NCBI GenBank assembly: GCA_949295785.1
Contig: CASFMJ010000082.1
Location: 1-36,517, forward strand
Reading direction: 5' to 3'
DNA from: an uncultured Bacillota bacterium
GTDB lineage: Bacteria; Bacillota; Clostridia; Peptostreptococcales; Anaerovoracaceae
DNA: 36,517 nt
Of this stretch, positions 28,688 through 36,517 are shown one piece after another. A program made the translations under genes and the position numbers. Within the stretch, counting starts at the first letter, position 1. Each line of letters opens with the position of its first letter. Below the pieces are notes generated by a model that was not told the origin of the DNA, ran no database searches, and saw nothing but the letters and a program-made list of their open reading frames with translations.

Positions 28688-28730
28688 TAAAAAATCGTTA
28701 TTCAACTATAAAAATGTTATGTAAACCAAA

Positions 28731-28768
28731 AACGCTAAAAATTTCCTCTTTTTTTAGCGTTTTTTTTT
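28731..28768. terminator. Strong terminator after ruvX
   Basis: AACGCTAAAAA (28731-28741) pairs perfectly with TTTTTAGCGTT (28751-28761) and is followed by a run of T. The A-run to its left also makes it work on the minus strand. It marks the end of the conserved gene block. Confidence 0.9.
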
Positions 28769-28797: not shown

Positions 28798-28806
28798 TGA
28801 TATAAT
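28798..28806 (+). promoter_or_regulatory. Extended -10 promoter of the chaperone-like/adhesin operon
   Basis: TG-A-TATAAT is a perfect extended -10 element. The downstream leader is 85-90 nt of AT-rich sequence. No good -35 is visible. Confidence 0.6.
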
Positions 28807-28895: not shown

Positions 28896-29570
28896 ATGAA
28901 CGTACACAAAAAAAGAAAACTCTTATATATTGTTATCCTTATACTTATAGTATGCTGTATGGTTGGAGGATATTATGCCTTCAAACCTGTAACGGGAATA
29001 CCTTACAGCATTAAAAAAATAGAAAAATTTATAGAATTACCTGATTATGAGAAGATTATTTCTCAGGAAGGGGATGTTTCAGATAAGAACCGGCAGAATT
29101 CTGTATGGAACAAGATTGTCGCCCAGACAGCTGTTAAGAAATATCCCAGGTCTGATCTGAAAAAACATAAAGAAAACGCAGATGATTATTATAGAGAATT
29201 AGCAAGAAACTTCGGATATGGCGATGATATTGAAAAGTTTTTAGAAGAAAAACTTTCGACTACAGCGGAAGACTACGAAAGTCTTCTTGAAAATTATGCC
29301 AAATCTTCGCTTAAGGAGCAGCTTATTGTATATGCCATCGCATTGGAAAGAAACATTGATTTGACTGAAAAAGAATATCAGAAGTATCTTGACAAGTATC
29401 TGAGTGATGCTGGAATGACTGAAGAAAAATATGAAGAGACATTCGGAGTCACCATATATGAGTATGCTGAATCAAAAAATTTAAAAACATCAATACTTAA
29501 AGAGAAAGTGTTTGAAAGTATATTTAATAATTCCGGAGACAGCTCCGGAGAGAGTACGGAGGAAAAGTGA
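28896..29570 (+). CDS. Membrane-anchored protein resembling the trigger-factor C-terminal chaperone domain
   Basis: The protein of about 224 residues has a basic start (NVHKKRKLL), one transmembrane helix (about 8-28; LYIVILILIVCCMVGGYYAF), and a long charged helical domain outside the membrane. The segments DDYYRELARNFGYGDD, SLKEQLIVYAIALERNID, LTEKEYQKYLDKYLSDAG and LKTSILKEKVFESIF follow the helix order of the trigger factor C-terminal/SurA-like chaperone fold. No prolyl isomerase domain is present. It ends in a Ser/Gly/Glu tail. I prefer ATG 28896; GTG 28857 has no ribosome binding site, and the site before 28896 (AGGG) is weak. Its stop overlaps the adhesin start. A role in folding or exporting the adhesin is inferred. 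Confidence 0.6.
   Translation: MNVHKKRKLLYIVILILIVCCMVGGYYAFKPVTGIPYSIKKIEKFIELPDYEKIISQEGDVSDKNRQNSVWNKIVAQTAVKKYPRSDLKKHKENADDYYRELARNFGYGDDIEKFLEEKLSTTAEDYESLLENYAKSSLKEQLIVYAIALERNIDLTEKEYQKYLDKYLSDAGMTEEKYEETFGVTIYEYAESKNLKTSILKEKVFESIFNNSGDSSGESTEEK
29532..29549 (+). other. GC-rich hairpin just upstream of the adhesin ribosome binding site
   Basis: TCCGGAG (29532-29538) pairs perfectly with CTCCGGA (29543-29549) around an ACAG tetraloop. It sits inside the end of the chaperone-like gene, 9 nt before the GGAGG (29558-29562) of the adhesin. There is no T-run, so it is not a terminator. It could affect RNA processing or adhesin translation. Confidence 0.55.
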
Positions 29571-32500
29571 TGGAAAAGGGAAATGCGGGAAAGAGATTAA
29601 TATCGTTTATACTGGTGATGTCAATGGTAATCACCAATTTTGCCACTTCACTGGCAACGGCATTTGCCAATGATGCAATAAACTATGAAGTGAATCTCAG
29701 ATTCACACCAGATCCGGAAGAAGTGGAAATAGGAGGAGAGGGTAATTATACTTTGTATGCCACCACGGCTCAGAGTGAACAGCCGGAAGATTATTTCCTG
29801 AAGATTGCCCTGCCTGCTGATTCGATACAATATCTTCAGGGTTTCACACAAGATACAGGTTCAGAAAAGCCTCATTTTGAAACTGGTGAGGGCAGTGTAT
29901 TTGTAAGTGATTCATCGGATCGATTGAGGTTATTTGTACCAGCGGACGGCAGAAAACCTTATCTTTATTTCACAATGAAAAACGGCGACACATATACAAC
30001 CAAGGTTAACTTTAAAATGCCGGAAGGTACAAGTTCACCATATACCATACAGATGAGTGAAAGCGATCTCTCTGCCGTATATGTTACAGGCAGCCAGCTG
30101 GTTGGAAATTTTGTCACAGAAACAGGAAACATGAGTTTTAATACCCACTTTGACTGGAATGATGTGAAAAAGACTGTAACGCCGGAATCGGTATCCGTGA
30201 GCGCTGCAGGTAAAATGAACCAGAACATAAAATATACCGTTTCTGCTGACAGAACCAGACCTGCAGATGCGTTGTATATCGGTATGTTCACCAAGTACAT
30301 AACCATAACCGATACCGTTACTCTGCCTGCATCTGCCACATTCACAGACGGAGATGTCACCATTGAGGGATCAGGTGGTACATGGAATATAAAGGCAGGA
30401 GAAACTATTATTGCTACAGTTGTGCAGAAAGGAACAGGAGAAGATATTTCTGTTCAGTTGACTGATGCATCCATATCTCCTGATAAGAAAACTCTGACTT
30501 TCAAATATACTCAGAACACAGTATATAATGACAATCCTTCTGCATATGTAAAAGTAATGACACATCCTTCTTTTGAAGTCACTCTTATGGGAGAGGGAGT
30601 TAAAATAGATGCTGAGGCCGTTTCGGCTGAACAGACTATAGTAAATAAAGCTGACTTTGAGGCTGTTTCATGGGATGAAAGTATGAAGGATCAAAGCAGC
30701 GCTCAGGTAAGCACCAGGATCACCGAGCCTGTGCCCGGTTTTGCAGTGAAAAAAGAAGCGTCGACTTCATACAATGAAGATGGCTCCATGATTGTGGATT
30801 ATACCATAACTGTAGAGAACACAGGCGCAGTCGTCTTAAACAATCTTACCATCACCGATAATGTTCCTTCAAATCTGGAAATAATAGAAAAAGGTGATGC
30901 AAGCCAGTCTGACAACACATTGTCATGGACTGTGAATCTGCCTGTAGGAGGAAAAGTCTCCAAGACATTCAAGGCGAAGGTAAAAGAAGGAGTTGAAGAT
31001 GGTACTTCAATAAAGAATACAGCCACGGCTACCTATGATGATATAACAAAAAATGGCGAGGCAACCATAACATACAAGGAGCCGGATCCTGATCTTACTC
31101 TGACAAAAACTGCATATAATTCAGATAACCGTTTGGTAAATTCTGACGGGTCAGTGTATAAGGGTGAGACCATCAAATATGTGATAGACGCAAAATATAA
31201 CGGAATGGCTTCTGATGCAGCTTTAGCGTCTCTTATAGACAAGCTGCCCGATGAAGTTGAATATGTAAGCGCCAAGGCATACCTTACATCAGCGCCTGAT
31301 GCTGAACTGGGCATTACATATGATAAGGCATCACATGAAGTGCGCCTTACCGACAGTACTTCCGTAGCCAGTGGACAGATAATCAGACTGGAAATAACAG
31401 TAAAGGTAAAGGAAGATACCAGTGCTTTTACGATTACAAATAATGCATCGGCTTCTTTAAACAACGGCGTAAAGGCAGATGCAGAACACACGACTAAAAT
31501 CAGAGACAGAGAGCCTATCTTTAATGTTAAAAAGACTGCTAAAAGGGTAAATGAAGGAGATGTAAACAGCGATATTGAGCTGGTACCGGTTGATGGCGGG
31601 GATGATAGCGGAAAGTATAAGGCTTCATATACCATAACACTGGAAAACACCGGCGATCCTTATTATAAGGAGGATGCAGGCACAATCACCGACACCATGT
31701 CAGGAGGTCTGCAGCCTGCTCTTGACGTTACTCAGACGACAGGACAGATAAAGGCCATAGCTAAAAAAGGTAACGGTGAGCCGGTGGAAATAACAGGCAC
31801 CTGGGTAAAGAATGAAAAGGAGGAACTTAGTCAGCCTGAGTACATAATAACCTGGGAAATTCCTTTTTCTCTTGGAACAAAAGAAACTTTCCAGATATCA
31901 TACGATGCTTTTGTAGATATGGGAAATTTTGATGAGGGAGACCATCTGAGAGGAATTTCCTTAGCAAACACAGCCTCTACTTATACTGACACATCTTCAA
32001 CAGTAGAAGGAGAAGTAAAAACTGTAATAACAGCTGATAAGGCTATATCAAAAATCAACGGTGAAAATGCTTCAGATCCTGACCACAGTGCTATTCATGC
32101 CAGAGATTCCATAACCTATACTCTTAAGATTTCCAATTCAGGAAACAGATCAACTTATATTCAAATAAAGGATCTGCTGCCTCAGGGTAATGTAAGTCAT
32201 GTCTGGAACAGCGACAATGTAAAAACTAAAATAATATCAGGAAAGGCAATAAAATCGTTCGAATCTGTTATAAAACCACCTATTGCCGGAGCTGCAAACT
32301 ATACGCTGACATGGATAGACAGCAGCGGTAATGATTTGATTAAAATTGAAGCAGGAGAGTTGATTGAAATTGAGGTTACTCTTAGTTTTGGCGATACGGT
32401 GGAAGAATTCAGAAAAGCATTTGGTGGTATCAGTCAGACTGAAAACACTTTAGATGTAATATATGCTGATAGATATTCAGAAACCGACAGCGATGGAAAT

Positions 32501-35500
32501 AAAGAGTGGATTGACACTGTAACCCATACTCCAGAATTCAGTGAAATGACTCTTTCAAAGACCACTGACAGAGATTATGCATACAGAGGTGGAGAAGACG
32601 TAATATATACATTGAGCGATTTTTATGCTACAACCCCAAAAGACTCGCTTTATCTAACAGATGATCTGTCAGAGACCAACGAATATCTTGACTTTAAATC
32701 AGTATTTACAGGTCAGGTTGACATAACTTTATCTTCGGAGAAAGTGACCACATATCCTCTTACTGTGTCTGCCAAGACGTCGGGGGGAGAAACTGTGGAA
32801 AAAACAATTCCGGATATTTCAGCCTCCGGTGAGACTCTCACATATGAACAGCTTATTGCAAGAGCCGGCATAGAAGAAGGCTCTGTCATAACAAAGCTTA
32901 AATGGGATTTCGGTCATCTGGATAAAATGGAAGTAACAAAGCCTGTGGTTTTAACCATGACGGCAAAAGATGGAATAACTGCCAGAAATATCCCCAATAC
33001 CGCAATGGTTGATTATAACGGAAGCATGAACAAGACCGTTGTGGCAGAAATTGATATATATCCTGACGATCAGCTGGTAAAGACGGCTCATACCGAGTCG
33101 GGCGATCTGCCGCAGACCAGTGACGACAGCCTCAAACCCGGAGACACTGTATCATTTAATATCCAGTACAGAAATTACAGTGATGCTGCAGAAGATCTGT
33201 CTGAAAGAGTGTTTACAGATTACATGTCAGTAAAAGGTGTGGAGCCGGGAGACTACGATGTTACATTTGTGCTCTATGACAGCAAGGGAGAAAAGATAAA
33301 GGAAGAAACCCTTGCAGGTGCATATAAAGTCACAGAGTATGATATAAATTCAGAAACAGCGAAAAAAGCATCTTTTACAGCGCCTAACGGATTTTCTCTT
33401 TCACCTGTCACAGAAGGTGACGGAAAAGCAAGGCTTGAAATAACATATTCCGTAAAACTCAGTGATGCATTTAAAGACAGTACGGCAGATTTCAATAAAG
33501 ACAAGAATGAAAACTGGGGAATCACTGAAGATAATACCTTATCCGATTCTCCGGAAAACATGTATATGCTCCACAACAGAGTCGTGACAGTAAAAGGCGA
33601 CGATACTTACATGGGCGAAACCGGCTACTATTATCATGAAGGCAGCAACAAGCTGATGATAAGAAAGAGCGTGCTGGGATATACGAATTTAATGGGATTC
33701 TCAACATGGGGGAAAAAAGCATTAATTGGGGAAGAAATCATGAAAAGTAATTCTGTCGGATATATTCAAGGCCGCTATGTTGACCGCTCCGATTGTGACG
33801 ACTTGCTTTACTGGATGCCCCAAATTGCGAATACAGACTATTTTAATGGTGCTATAAGATATGGCATGATAATCGCAAACGATAAAAACAGTAAAGAACC
33901 TCTTGTAGTAGATAGAATTGAAGATCTTGTACCGGATAATGTATGGTTTGATAAGTCGATGAGTTACTTTAAAGTGCAAGCATATATACATTTGCCGTCA
34001 CAAAGTAATTCAAAGATTGCAGAAGCTTTATGGAGTGGATATAGATATGGATATACTTCATGTGCAGTACCTGGAAAACCTGATACAATTTCTGTAACTA
34101 ATTTGACACCTAGTAAAATTGTAGGCATTTCAACACAAAAGCTGTATGACGATTCAGATCTTTTTGGTCAGATAATGGCGATACCTGATGAATACAGTTT
34201 CAAAGGATATAATTTAAATATTCCTGATAATAATATTGATACTAATGATACAAATAAAGTAAAATTTGATTTCCATAATTATAACAGTAGCTCAGACAAC
34301 CTTGTTCTTGATCCGGGTGAATGTGCAGTCATAATGTATATGGTGGCTATAGACAGGCCCGATGTAGAGCCGGAAAAATATACCAATACAGCTACTCTAT
34401 ATGTAAAAGATGGTACATATACCGAGGAATTCCAGGCTATGGAAGACCTGTCCGGCTTTAAAAGCAAAATTGCTCCGCAAAACGAAGAGAAAGGGGTAAA
34501 ACATAACGACGGCACTTTTGAAAAAATAAGCGAAAATGCTTTTACTACCCAGGTAAGTTCTTATCCTGTTTTTGTAAGCGCCGGCATAGCAAAGAAAGCT
34601 TCTGCAAGGATATCACCTGCTGCTGATCAGAAGTGGGATGAAAACACCACCATAAGTCAGCTGGCTGGCGGAACGCGGGATACCAATGTTTCCGGCCTCG
34701 AATTTAATGATGTGGCCGAATTTGAGATAACCGTATCCAATACAGCCGCTACTCCTCTGAAGGATTACACACTAAAAGATTTGCTGCCGTATCCGTATGA
34801 AATCATTACCGAAGAGGTGGGCGGAAAAACTGTAGTAGCTAAAACCTCAGATGGCAAAAACATATACGGCACCGTATCGGATAATCCCGAACCGGAAAAA
34901 TCAGGCATATCACAGACCATAACCATGAAGGGTTCCGAACAGGATGACCAGGGCTCAGCTGATAATAATCCGATGTACATTGCCGGAAAGGGCACAAAGG
35001 TTATAAAGGTTTATGCACGATATGCCGACAGCGAAAAGAAAAGTATAGATTACATAAACAGAGTCGAGTTTTATCCTGATGTCACAAATAATTTTGTGTT
35101 AACTTCAGGTGAAGCAATCTATGACAGCGATGAAAAACTCATAGGAGGAGGCGATAACGCTACGATCCGTCCTTCATATTCCTTCGGATCAGGCTCTGTC
35201 CTTGCCATAGACAGCAATGACCAGCATGCCACAGGAAATGATGATCCCAATACGGTGGAAGCTGACTTTGCCGGAGACAAGGTTCTCTATACCATGAGAG
35301 TCACCAATGACAGTTCAACTCCATATGAGAACCTCGTACTTATTAACAATCTGCCTGCCATTAACGACATAGGCGTCGTAAATGCAAAGACGTCTAAAGG
35401 AAGCCAGTTTGGCGTTGATCTTGCTTCCGATGAAGAACATGAATACCTTACAAAGGGAGTTGTTGCCGAATATCAGATAGTTGGTATAGGTGAAGAACCT

Positions 35501-36517
35501 TCAGATGATGCATGGATAAGCGCAGATGAACTTATTTCTGTAACCTCTGTAAAAAAACCTGATGGGTATTCAATTGAGGAGTGGGCTGGAGCAGAAAGCA
35601 GTGAATGGACGACTTTCGAAGAAGCACAGGAACGAACCAGCGCACTAAGATTTGCACTGCCTGACTCTCTTCCTGGAGGCAAGCAGCTTCTCGTAAGGTT
35701 TACAGGAATAATAGACGATACCGCTGATCCCGGAGAAATAGGCTATGATGCTTTCGGATATGCATTTACATCCGATGACAGATACTATGCAGAGCCTGTA
35801 AAAGTAGGTGTGAAGATTAGTGATACCAGTATCTCAGGAACAAAGATCTGGGATGATGAAAACAATATATTAAGGCCATCTCCCGAGAACACACCAATAA
35901 TTTTATATAAGAGTGTAAACGGAAGCGAGCCTGAACCGGTTCCCGATGCAAAGATAACATGGATCAATACTGATGGTAATGAATGGACCTTTGAATTTAC
36001 TGGCCTGAGAAAGACAGAAAACGGACAGCCCATAACATATACCGTATCCGAAGGAAATATTCCCGGATATACGCCATCAGTAACTGAAAACGGTGACGGA
36101 ACATTTACTGTTACAAATACTTTAGTGAACACTATTGATCTTGAAGGAACCAAGACATGGAAGGATGATCAGTATACTACACGACCCAAATCTGTAGAAC
36201 TTAAGCTGATGTCAAGAACCGAAGCCACAGCAGGAGCAGGAGACTATCCGGAAGAATACACAGATGTCGAAAACGCTCCGCAGCCTCAGTGGAATACGGA
36301 TAATGCAGATATCTGGACATACAAGTTTACAGGTCTTCCTGCTGAAACATCAGACGGAAGAGCCATACAGTACAAAGTTGTTGAAATGCCTGTGGAAGGC
36401 TATGAATCCACCGATGACGGAAACGGCAACTTCACCAATACTGCTTCCGCAGTTACAGAAATCTCTGTAATCAAACAGTGGCAGGATAATAATGACCGGA
36501 TGCAGATGAGACCTGAT
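29570..36517 (+). CDS. Giant secreted repeat adhesin with DUF11-like and Cna-B domains (3' end beyond window)
   Basis: The frame is open without a stop for 2316 codons and runs off the right edge. It starts at ATG 29570, overlapping the previous stop by one base, with GGAGG 7 nt upstream. Residues 1-33 are a signal peptide (basic start, ISFILVMSMVITNFATSL, then ATAFA before ND). After an N-terminal beta-rich region (34-385) come roughly nine domains of the DUF11/conserved-repeat type (VDYTITVENTG, LTITDNVPSNLEI), starting near residues 391, 507, 650, 819, 993, 1166, 1361, 1670 and 1871. Then come Cna B-type domains (2089-2184, 2190-2295, third started at 2296). Such proteins are sortase-anchored surface adhesins; the anchor motif is expected outside the window. 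Cysteines are almost absent. Confidence 0.85.
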   Translation, partial: MEKGNAGKRLISFILVMSMVITNFATSLATAFANDAINYEVNLRFTPDPEEVEIGGEGNYTLYATTAQSEQPEDYFLKIALPADSIQYLQGFTQDTGSEKPHFETGEGSVFVSDSSDRLRLFVPADGRKPYLYFTMKNGDTYTTKVNFKMPEGTSSPYTIQMSESDLSAVYVTGSQLVGNFVTETGNMSFNTHFDWNDVKKTVTPESVSVSAAGKMNQNIKYTVSADRTRPADALYIGMFTKYITITDTVTLPASATFTDGDVTIEGSGGTWNIKAGETIIATVVQKGTGEDISVQLTDASISPDKKTLTFKYTQNTVYNDNPSAYVKVMTHPSFEVTLMGEGVKIDAEAVSAEQTIVNKADFEAVSWDESMKDQSSAQVSTRITEPVPGFAVKKEASTSYNEDGSMIVDYTITVENTGAVVLNNLTITDNVPSNLEIIEKGDASQSDNTLSWTVNLPVGGKVSKTFKAKVKEGVEDGTSIKNTATATYDDITKNGEATITYKEPDPDLTLTKTAYNSDNRLVNSDGSVYKGETIKYVIDAKYNGMASDAALASLIDKLPDEVEYVSAKAYLTSAPDAELGITYDKASHEVRLTDSTSVASGQIIRLEITVKVKEDTSAFTITNNASASLNNGVKADAEHTTKIRDREPIFNVKKTAKRVNEGDVNSDIELVPVDGGDDSGKYKASYTITLENTGDPYYKEDAGTITDTMSGGLQPALDVTQTTGQIKAIAKKGNGEPVEITGTWVKNEKEELSQPEYIITWEIPFSLGTKETFQISYDAFVDMGNFDEGDHLRGISLANTASTYTDTSSTVEGEVKTVITADKAISKINGENASDPDHSAIHARDSITYTLKISNSGNRSTYIQIKDLLPQGNVSHVWNSDNVKTKIISGKAIKSFESVIKPPIAGAANYTLTWIDSSGNDLIKIEAGELIEIEVTLSFGDTVEEFRKAFGGISQTENTLDVIYADRYSETDSDGNKEWIDTVTHTPEFSEMTLSKTTDRDYAYRGGEDVIYTLSDFYATTPKDSLYLTDDLSETNEYLDFKSVFTGQVDITLSSEKVTTYPLTVSAKTSGGETVEKTIPDISASGETLTYEQLIARAGIEEGSVITKLKWDFGHLDKMEVTKPVVLTMTAKDGITARNIPNTAMVDYNGSMNKTVVAEIDIYPDDQLVKTAHTESGDLPQTSDDSLKPGDTVSFNIQYRNYSDAAEDLSERVFTDYMSVKGVEPGDYDVTFVLYDSKGEKIKEETLAGAYKVTEYDINSETAKKASFTAPNGFSLSPVTEGDGKARLEITYSVKLSDAFKDSTADFNKDKNENWGITEDNTLSDSPENMYMLHNRVVTVKGDDTYMGETGYYYHEGSNKLMIRKSVLGYTNLMGFSTWGKKALIGEEIMKSNSVGYIQGRYVDRSDCDDLLYWMPQIANTDYFNGAIRYGMIIANDKNSKEPLVVDRIEDLVPDNVWFDKSMSYFKVQAYIHLPSQSNSKIAEALWSGYRYGYTSCAVPGKPDTISVTNLTPSKIVGISTQKLYDDSDLFGQIMAIPDEYSFKGYNLNIPDNNIDTNDTNKVKFDFHNYNSSSDNLVLDPGECAVIMYMVAIDRPDVEPEKYTNTATLYVKDGTYTEEFQAMEDLSGFKSKIAPQNEEKGVKHNDGTFEKISENAFTTQVSSYPVFVSAGIAKKASARISPAADQKWDENTTISQLAGGTRDTNVSGLEFNDVAEFEITVSNTAATPLKDYTLKDLLPYPYEIITEEVGGKTVVAKTSDGKNIYGTVSDNPEPEKSGISQTITMKGSEQDDQGSADNNPMYIAGKGTKVIKVYARYADSEKKSIDYINRVEFYPDVTNNFVLTSGEAIYDSDEKLIGGGDNATIRPSYSFGSGSVLAIDSNDQHATGNDDPNTVEADFAGDKVLYTMRVTNDSSTPYENLVLINNLPAINDIGVVNAKTSKGSQFGVDLASDEEHEYLTKGVVAEYQIVGIGEEPSDDAWISADELISVTSVKKPDGYSIEEWAGAESSEWTTFEEAQERTSALRFALPDSLPGGKQLLVRFTGIIDDTADPGEIGYDAFGYAFTSDDRYYAEPVKVGVKISDTSISGTKIWDDENNILRPSPENTPIILYKSVNGSEPEPVPDAKITWINTDGNEWTFEFTGLRKTENGQPITYTVSEGNIPGYTPSVTENGDGTFTVTNTLVNTIDLEGTKTWKDDQYTTRPKSVELKLMSRTEATAGAGDYPEEYTDVENAPQPQWNTDNADIWTYKFTGLPAETSDGRAIQYKVVEMPVEGYESTDDGNGNFTNTASAVTEISVIKQWQDNNDRMQMRPD
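30741..35350 (+). repeat. Block of DUF11-like repeat domains in the adhesin
   Basis: Each unit opens with a strand carrying a conserved lysine (FAVKKEAS, LTLTKTAY, FNVKKTAK, MTLSKTTD, QLVKTAHT, LMIRKSVL, AGIAKKAS). It contains a YTITVENTG-like strand and usually closes with an Asn-Thr-Ala strand (NTATATYD, NTASTYTD, NTAMVDYN, NTATLYVK). This Lys/Asn spacing is that of self-forming isopeptide bonds known in Gram-positive pili and adhesins. The units differ too much to be recent duplications. Confidence 0.65.
33690..34300 (+). other. Segment of deviating composition inside the adhesin gene
   Basis: Across about 200 codons the base composition drops to very AT-rich (the line 34201-34260 is mostly A/T) and glutamine is written CAA five times out of six, against CAG almost everywhere else in the gene. 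Most of the protein's rare cysteines fall here (SDCDD, YTSCAVPG, PGECAV). The frame is intact. This suggests recombination that replaced or inserted one domain. Confidence 0.6.
35834..36517 (+). repeat. Tandem Cna B-type domains at the adhesin 3' end
   Basis: Two full units and the start of a third: ISGTKIWDDENN ... FTVTNTL (2089-2184), LEGTKTWKDDQYTTRP ... NFTNTA (2190-2295), ISVIKQWQDNN ... MRPD (2296 to the edge). They share a K-x-W opening, RP about ten residues on, the W-x-(F/Y)-x-F-TGL strand, YTVSE or YKVVE, and closing TNT. Cna-B domains act as stalks holding the adhesive part away from the wall. Confidence 0.85.

Follow-up and report, generated by a model that had tools for sequence, protein, structure and literature searches.

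Gene order and boundaries at the ruvX locus

The window analysed here, 36,517 nucleotides in length, is a complete contig (G000:C82) of a 1.89-Mb genome in 117 contigs. The gene order at the locus is alaS, ireB, ruvX, a terminator hairpin, an extended −10 element, an open reading frame (ORF) for a 224-residue protein and an ORF for a giant adhesin-like protein. The features, all on the forward (+) strand, are as follows.

28728..28764, +, intrinsic terminator hairpin 3' of ruvX with a 14-pair stem, a 9-nt loop and a T tract (−15 kcal/mol, z = −6.0, 0/200 shuffles equally stable)
28798..28806, +, perfect extended −10 element TGATATAAT, predicted promoter of the pair
28896..29570, +, 224-residue ORF, membrane protein with a single transmembrane (TM) segment and a Trigger_C domain (ORF, Pfam, profile, structure and hydropathy)
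28917..28982, +, N-terminal TM segment, about residues 8–29, with KKRK before it (hydropathy and sequence; predicted N-in/C-out)
29064..29525, +, trigger-factor C-terminal/SurA-like helical domain, residues 57–210 (PF05698, E = 4.4e-10; profile against 8p7x, 1.1e-5; 2nsa, probability 1.00)
29558..29562, +, Shine-Dalgarno sequence GGAGG of the adhesin, within the 3' end of the chaperone-like gene and 7 nt upstream of the ATG
29568..29572, +, TGATG stop/start overlap with one base (29570) in common (TGA 29568–29570, ATG 29570–29572)
29570..36517, +, secreted adhesin-like protein of at least 2316 residues (ORF; five DUF11 stretches and two Cna_B domains), running off the contig
35831..36442, +, the two Cna_B domains, with Lys (GTKxW), Glu (YxVxE) and Asn (TNT) (sequence pattern)

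The two genes are adjacent, overlap by one base, are bounded by the terminator and the promoter-like site, and are presumably co-transcribed. The hairpin had been missed by a pattern scanner because of its 9-nt loop, and a −35/−10 scan for a promoter of the pair gave no signal above chance. The preliminary description had given the pair its own promoter after a strong terminator; the terminator was upheld, while the promoter now takes the form of a predicted extended −10 element. It had also placed the stop of a one-helix membrane protein on the very base where the adhesin starts, which is exactly what we observed. Coupled translation, proposed on that ground, is possible but not required, since the adhesin has its own Shine-Dalgarno sequence. 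Of the 28 junctions listed in the window 5 are overlapping, an ordinary arrangement here, and, given also the adhesin's own ribosome site, the overlap by itself is weak evidence. The GC content is 34% in the chaperone-like gene, 41% in the adhesin gene and 40% in the window; the small gene is slightly AT-richer but the adhesin gene is not, so that GC content is uninformative on horizontal transfer. The extended −10 motif TGNTATAAT occurs nine times in the window (1–36517) against 2.5 expected, a number reached in 0/100 shuffles, and may represent a common promoter type in this genome.

The adhesin frame is open to the contig end, so its C-terminus lies out of view and 2316 residues is a minimum; a search of the other contigs of the same genome did not find the missing part. 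Besides the DUF11 and Cna_B domains, Pfam detected a DUF7507 match. The Lys/Glu/Asn pattern of the Cna_B domains is one that we take to be of the kind forming an internal isopeptide bond. Isopeptide bonds of Cna_B domains form spontaneously. The suggestion that the small protein assists their maturation found no support, as nothing in the analysis points that way.

The 224-residue protein and its relatives

Hydropathy analysis of the small protein gave a single hydrophobic segment (best 19-residue window from residue 9, mean Kyte-Doolittle 2.53) and no second one. The pattern search for a lipobox was negative, leaving room for a non-canonical one at C20/C21. Trigger_C was the sole Pfam match above the cut-off; neither an FKBP_C match, present in the paralogue described below, nor a parvulin (rotamase) domain was found by Pfam. 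The GFRxGxxP motif of the ribosome-binding domain is absent, the N-terminus being the TM segment, and model TIGR00115 was matched only at positions 267–409, far under its cut-off. With the ribosome-binding and PPIase domains tested and absent, the protein is not trigger factor proper.

A plain phmmer search of the Protein Data Bank (PDB) with the 224-residue protein returned chance matches only, and a family profile was needed. The profile of 57 family members matched trigger factor at 1.1e-5 and, more weakly, the Thermotoga maritima trigger factor domain and LIC12922. The AlphaFold model has a mean pLDDT of 85.6, and in Foldseek its best matches were the trigger factor C-domain 2nsa (probability 1.00) and 3gty (0.99), followed by MPN555, LIC12922 and chloroplast trigger factor, with SurA-like proteins lower in the ranking. 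The E-values were weak (0.03 at best), yet the leading matches were all of one kind. The most conserved residues of the family, Y83, P84 and Y99, are retained. On these sequence and model comparisons the outer part of the protein is a Trigger_C (SurA-like) domain, and it is predicted to face away from the cytoplasm. The resemblance to the trigger-factor C-terminal domain, without a PPIase, and the chaperone-like fold that the preliminary description had expected were thus both borne out. MPN555 and the isolated trigger factor C-domain (1zxj, 2nsa) likewise have this helical fold and lack a PPIase domain. The former comes from Mycoplasma and the latter is an excised domain, neither with such an anchor, whereas the 224-residue protein combines a membrane anchor with an exported neighbour.

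The same genome encodes a 392-residue lipoprotein with FKBP_C and Trigger_C domains (L002:886-2064), so that the small protein is an extra copy beside a general FKBP+Trigger_C lipoprotein encoded elsewhere. Of the 350 genomes of the bacterial family, 196 contained matches to the small protein, nearly all within open frames of at least 360 residues, and most of the FKBP+Trigger_C relatives fetched sit just upstream of nrdR. Trigger factor homologues that lack the N-terminal domain are known and still assist refolding, and 209 of the 238 Firmicutes genomes with several trigger factor homologues are Clostridia (PMC11559001). The 224-residue protein shares with these homologues, and with the FKBP+Trigger_C lipoproteins, the C-terminal chaperone domain, a membrane anchor and a predicted location outside the cytoplasm. 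It differs from the lipoproteins in lacking the FKBP domain and the arm helix, in having a TM segment in place of a lipobox, and in having an adhesin as its neighbour and not nrdR.

The alignment shows neither an FKBP domain nor the arm helix in front of it in the small protein, as in the short forms of genus g52 described below. The best reading is that the small protein derives from the family's extracytoplasmic FKBP+Trigger_C proteins through loss of these two parts. Its branch on the C-domain tree is long (1.2–1.4 changes per column), so that its place there is tentative. A recent duplication of the lipoprotein of its own genus was weakly rejected on that tree (p-AU 0.031 and 0.012); the segment 'FIELPDYEKI' resembles the 'YITLPDYDSF' that precedes FKBP in the lipoproteins of the genus, and such an origin may still hold. 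A single clade of all FKBP-less forms was neither shown nor rejected (p-AU 0.21–0.29). Scans of genome contigs, viral contigs and plasmids yielded no close relatives.

The long branch, the missing FKBP domain and arm, and the occurrence in one genome only would all be expected of a decaying duplicate, that is, an internally deleted FKBP+Trigger_C gene with no function. We consider such decay highly improbable: the reading frame is unbroken, the model predicts the fold with confidence, Y83, P84 and Y99 are kept, and an equivalent short form is conserved in two other genera.

Distribution of the pairing and overlap with GH25 muramidase genes

The association with adhesins did not extend to other genomes. 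Only one of the six short-form genomes, among 350 genomes of the family, has an adhesin as neighbour of the short membrane form, and it is the present one. The short form is absent from five congeners. Four of these have a readable ruvX locus, and none carries the pair downstream of ruvX; in three, convergent zinc-ribbon and LysM genes come immediately after ruvX, and in the remaining one other genes do. In the window genome, contig C58 has these zinc-ribbon and LysM genes close to its end. Together these arrangements suggest joint gain or loss of the two genes here, the pair having the appearance of an accessory insertion at the ruvX locus. No Trigger_C gene was found upstream of the adhesin relatives in four other genomes (G112, G199, G143 and G345), of the 215-residue adhesin copy in the same genome described below, or of the Cna_B protein of a congener (G001). 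Likewise, no FKBP-bearing homologue among those read lies beside an adhesin, and among the matches listed in the order and class samples no adhesin neighboured a short membrane form; those listed from other families are nearly all full length. A general association of the short form with adhesins was accordingly rejected on distribution: adhesin-free homologues are the rule, and adhesin relatives occur without the gene. The first of these is an outcome that the preliminary description had itself named as counting against its proposal.

To search the family for comparable proteins we made a profile of the short forms, and six genomes formed the top of the matches listed. These encode TM+Trigger_C proteins of about 205–224 residues, and comprise the present genome, three of genus g51 and two of genus g52. 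In all five of the others the gene begins within the 3' end of a gene for a secreted GH25 muramidase, with an overlap of about 20–29 bases and, at the junctions printed, a AAGGAGGTAAG-like ribosome site in the GH25 tail. The secreted proteins have approximately 480 residues, and the GH25 match was 6e-26 to 6e-30 in the three tested. The loci are as follows.

L158:6951-8988, GH25 gene overlapping a TM+Trigger_C gene
L159:7371-9408, the same arrangement
L160:5058-7119, the same arrangement
L034:4676-6746, the same arrangement
L037:3420-5493, the same arrangement
L035:6368-7330, longer FKBP-less form (318–320 residues), whose long N-terminus, ahead of the TM segment, is rich in lysine/glutamate
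L038:7422-8378, longer FKBP-less form as at L035

The main new finding is that the short form recurs in overlap with the gene for a secreted GH25 muramidase, and no description of such a gene pair was found in the papers searched. Since the other five short forms all overlap a GH25 gene, coupling to an exported protein recurs and the client differs; in each genome with a short membrane form among the matches listed, that form is linked to an exported wall protein. The architecture is the same in the g51/g52 pairs and in the window, and in both the gene overlaps that of a secreted protein. In g51 and g52, however, the client is a GH25 enzyme encoded upstream, whereas in the window it is an adhesin encoded downstream. 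A common clade with the GH25-coupled forms was neither shown nor rejected (p-AU 0.29), so the recurrence may represent one event or two. The longer FKBP-less form of g52, which keeps the arm helix, is a counter-example, as its gene is not closely packed with one for an exported protein.

These distributions bear on whether the small protein is a general extracytoplasmic chaperone paralogue with many clients that lies beside the adhesin by chance, the junction reflecting compact packing. Such a reading would accommodate the FKBP homologues, which are mostly beside nrdR and in no case read beside an adhesin, as well as the adhesin relatives that manage without a Trigger_C gene and the frequency of overlapping junctions in the window. 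On the other hand, the remaining short membrane forms are not scattered but all overlap the gene of one exported protein, the pair has its own terminator–promoter boundary and is missing as a unit from congeners, and a general paralogue is already present in the genome. On balance we regard a chance neighbour as possible but rather doubtful. The dedicated adhesin chaperone of the preliminary description does not carry over to other genomes; what gained support is the broader association of a membrane chaperone with an exported client, with five GH25 overlaps in two genera.

A putative substrate-dedicated holdase

The gene order, the overlap, the Trigger_C fold, the lack of a PPIase domain, the anchor and the recurrence of the short form, observed or predicted as set out above, together lead to a holdase reading. 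We give roughly even credence to the proposal that the 224-residue protein is a membrane-tethered, PPIase-less holdase dedicated to the adhesin. In such a scheme the small protein would be made from the adhesin's transcript, if the two are indeed co-transcribed, just ahead of the adhesin itself. It would be positioned beside the Sec exit on the outer face of the membrane, where it would bind unfolded adhesin segments as they emerge. Aggregation or degradation would thereby be held off until the tandem Ig-like domains fold, and the folded adhesin would pass on to the wall. The small protein would act exclusively on the adhesin and may influence its export. In published work, N-domain-lacking trigger factor homologues from Myxococcus failed to keep GAPDH from aggregating (PMC11559001), a result that counts against strong holdase activity. 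The missing arm helix and the restriction of the adhesin pairing to one genome also speak against the proposal.

The membrane-bound protein could instead serve assembly or delivery and not folding, its Trigger_C arms acting as a docking site from which the adhesin or the GH25 enzyme is passed to a sortase, a complex or the wall. In favour are the expected site of action of both kinds of client, the cell wall, the general protein-binding cradle that the fold forms, and the two sortases of the genome. Both sortases are nevertheless on other contigs, no sortase or pilus gene lies beside the pair in the available sequence of the locus, and no specific docking motif is known, so that we judge a delivery role unlikely.

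The preliminary description knew of no such pair; dedicated gene pairs for a folding factor and its exported substrate are already represented by PrtM/PrtP of Lactococcus (PMC3307742) and by the foldase/lipase pair LipH/LipA (PMC9638971). PrtM resembles the holdase proposed here in being a membrane-attached extracytoplasmic folding factor encoded with one large surface protein, but it is a parvulin-type lipoprotein, whereas the 224-residue protein has Trigger_C without a PPIase and a putative client. The likeness to LipH lies in the N-terminal membrane anchor, the outer chaperone domain and a gene beside that of the client; LipH differs in belonging to another family by sequence, in acting in the Gram-negative periplasm and in having a proven client. 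Conserved linkage to one client of the PrtM/PrtP or LipH/LipA type was not observed, the adhesin link being present in one genome and the GH25 link in five. On this comparison the 224-residue protein falls outside the PrtM and LipH families and matches only their logic.

It is tempting, though we advance this only tentatively, to see the short forms as a new class of trigger-factor-C-only membrane holdases in one clostridial family, assigned by gene overlap to single wall proteins (GH25 in two genera and the giant adhesin here). To our knowledge, few folding helpers are known for the export of very large multi-domain surface proteins in Gram-positive bacteria. The gene arrangements suggest the assignment of stripped-down chaperones to one exported client each; if this is true, client-specific chaperones would arise through domain stripping of trigger-factor-type proteins. 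The adhesin pair and the GH25 muramidase pair provide two ready client pairs for direct testing.

Surface-protein genes also occur elsewhere in the genome. Contig C43 (L090) carries a pilus-like cluster of a 1548-residue surface protein, a 520-residue LPETG pilin-like protein and a sortase. In the window genome a sortase gene also comes after the histidine-utilisation (hut) genes, and in G199 an adhesin relative is located downstream of hut genes (the two loci being L091:2778-9929 and L066). On contig C37, a second copy of the adhesin N-terminal domain (L064:6828-7475; 51–53% identity) follows spoIIIAH and runs for 215 residues before a stop. It is followed at the end of the contig by a signal-peptide-like start (MRERVKKLFVLLLILSVVFSGINNIFTL), so this locus probably holds an adhesin remnant and a further adhesin-like gene.
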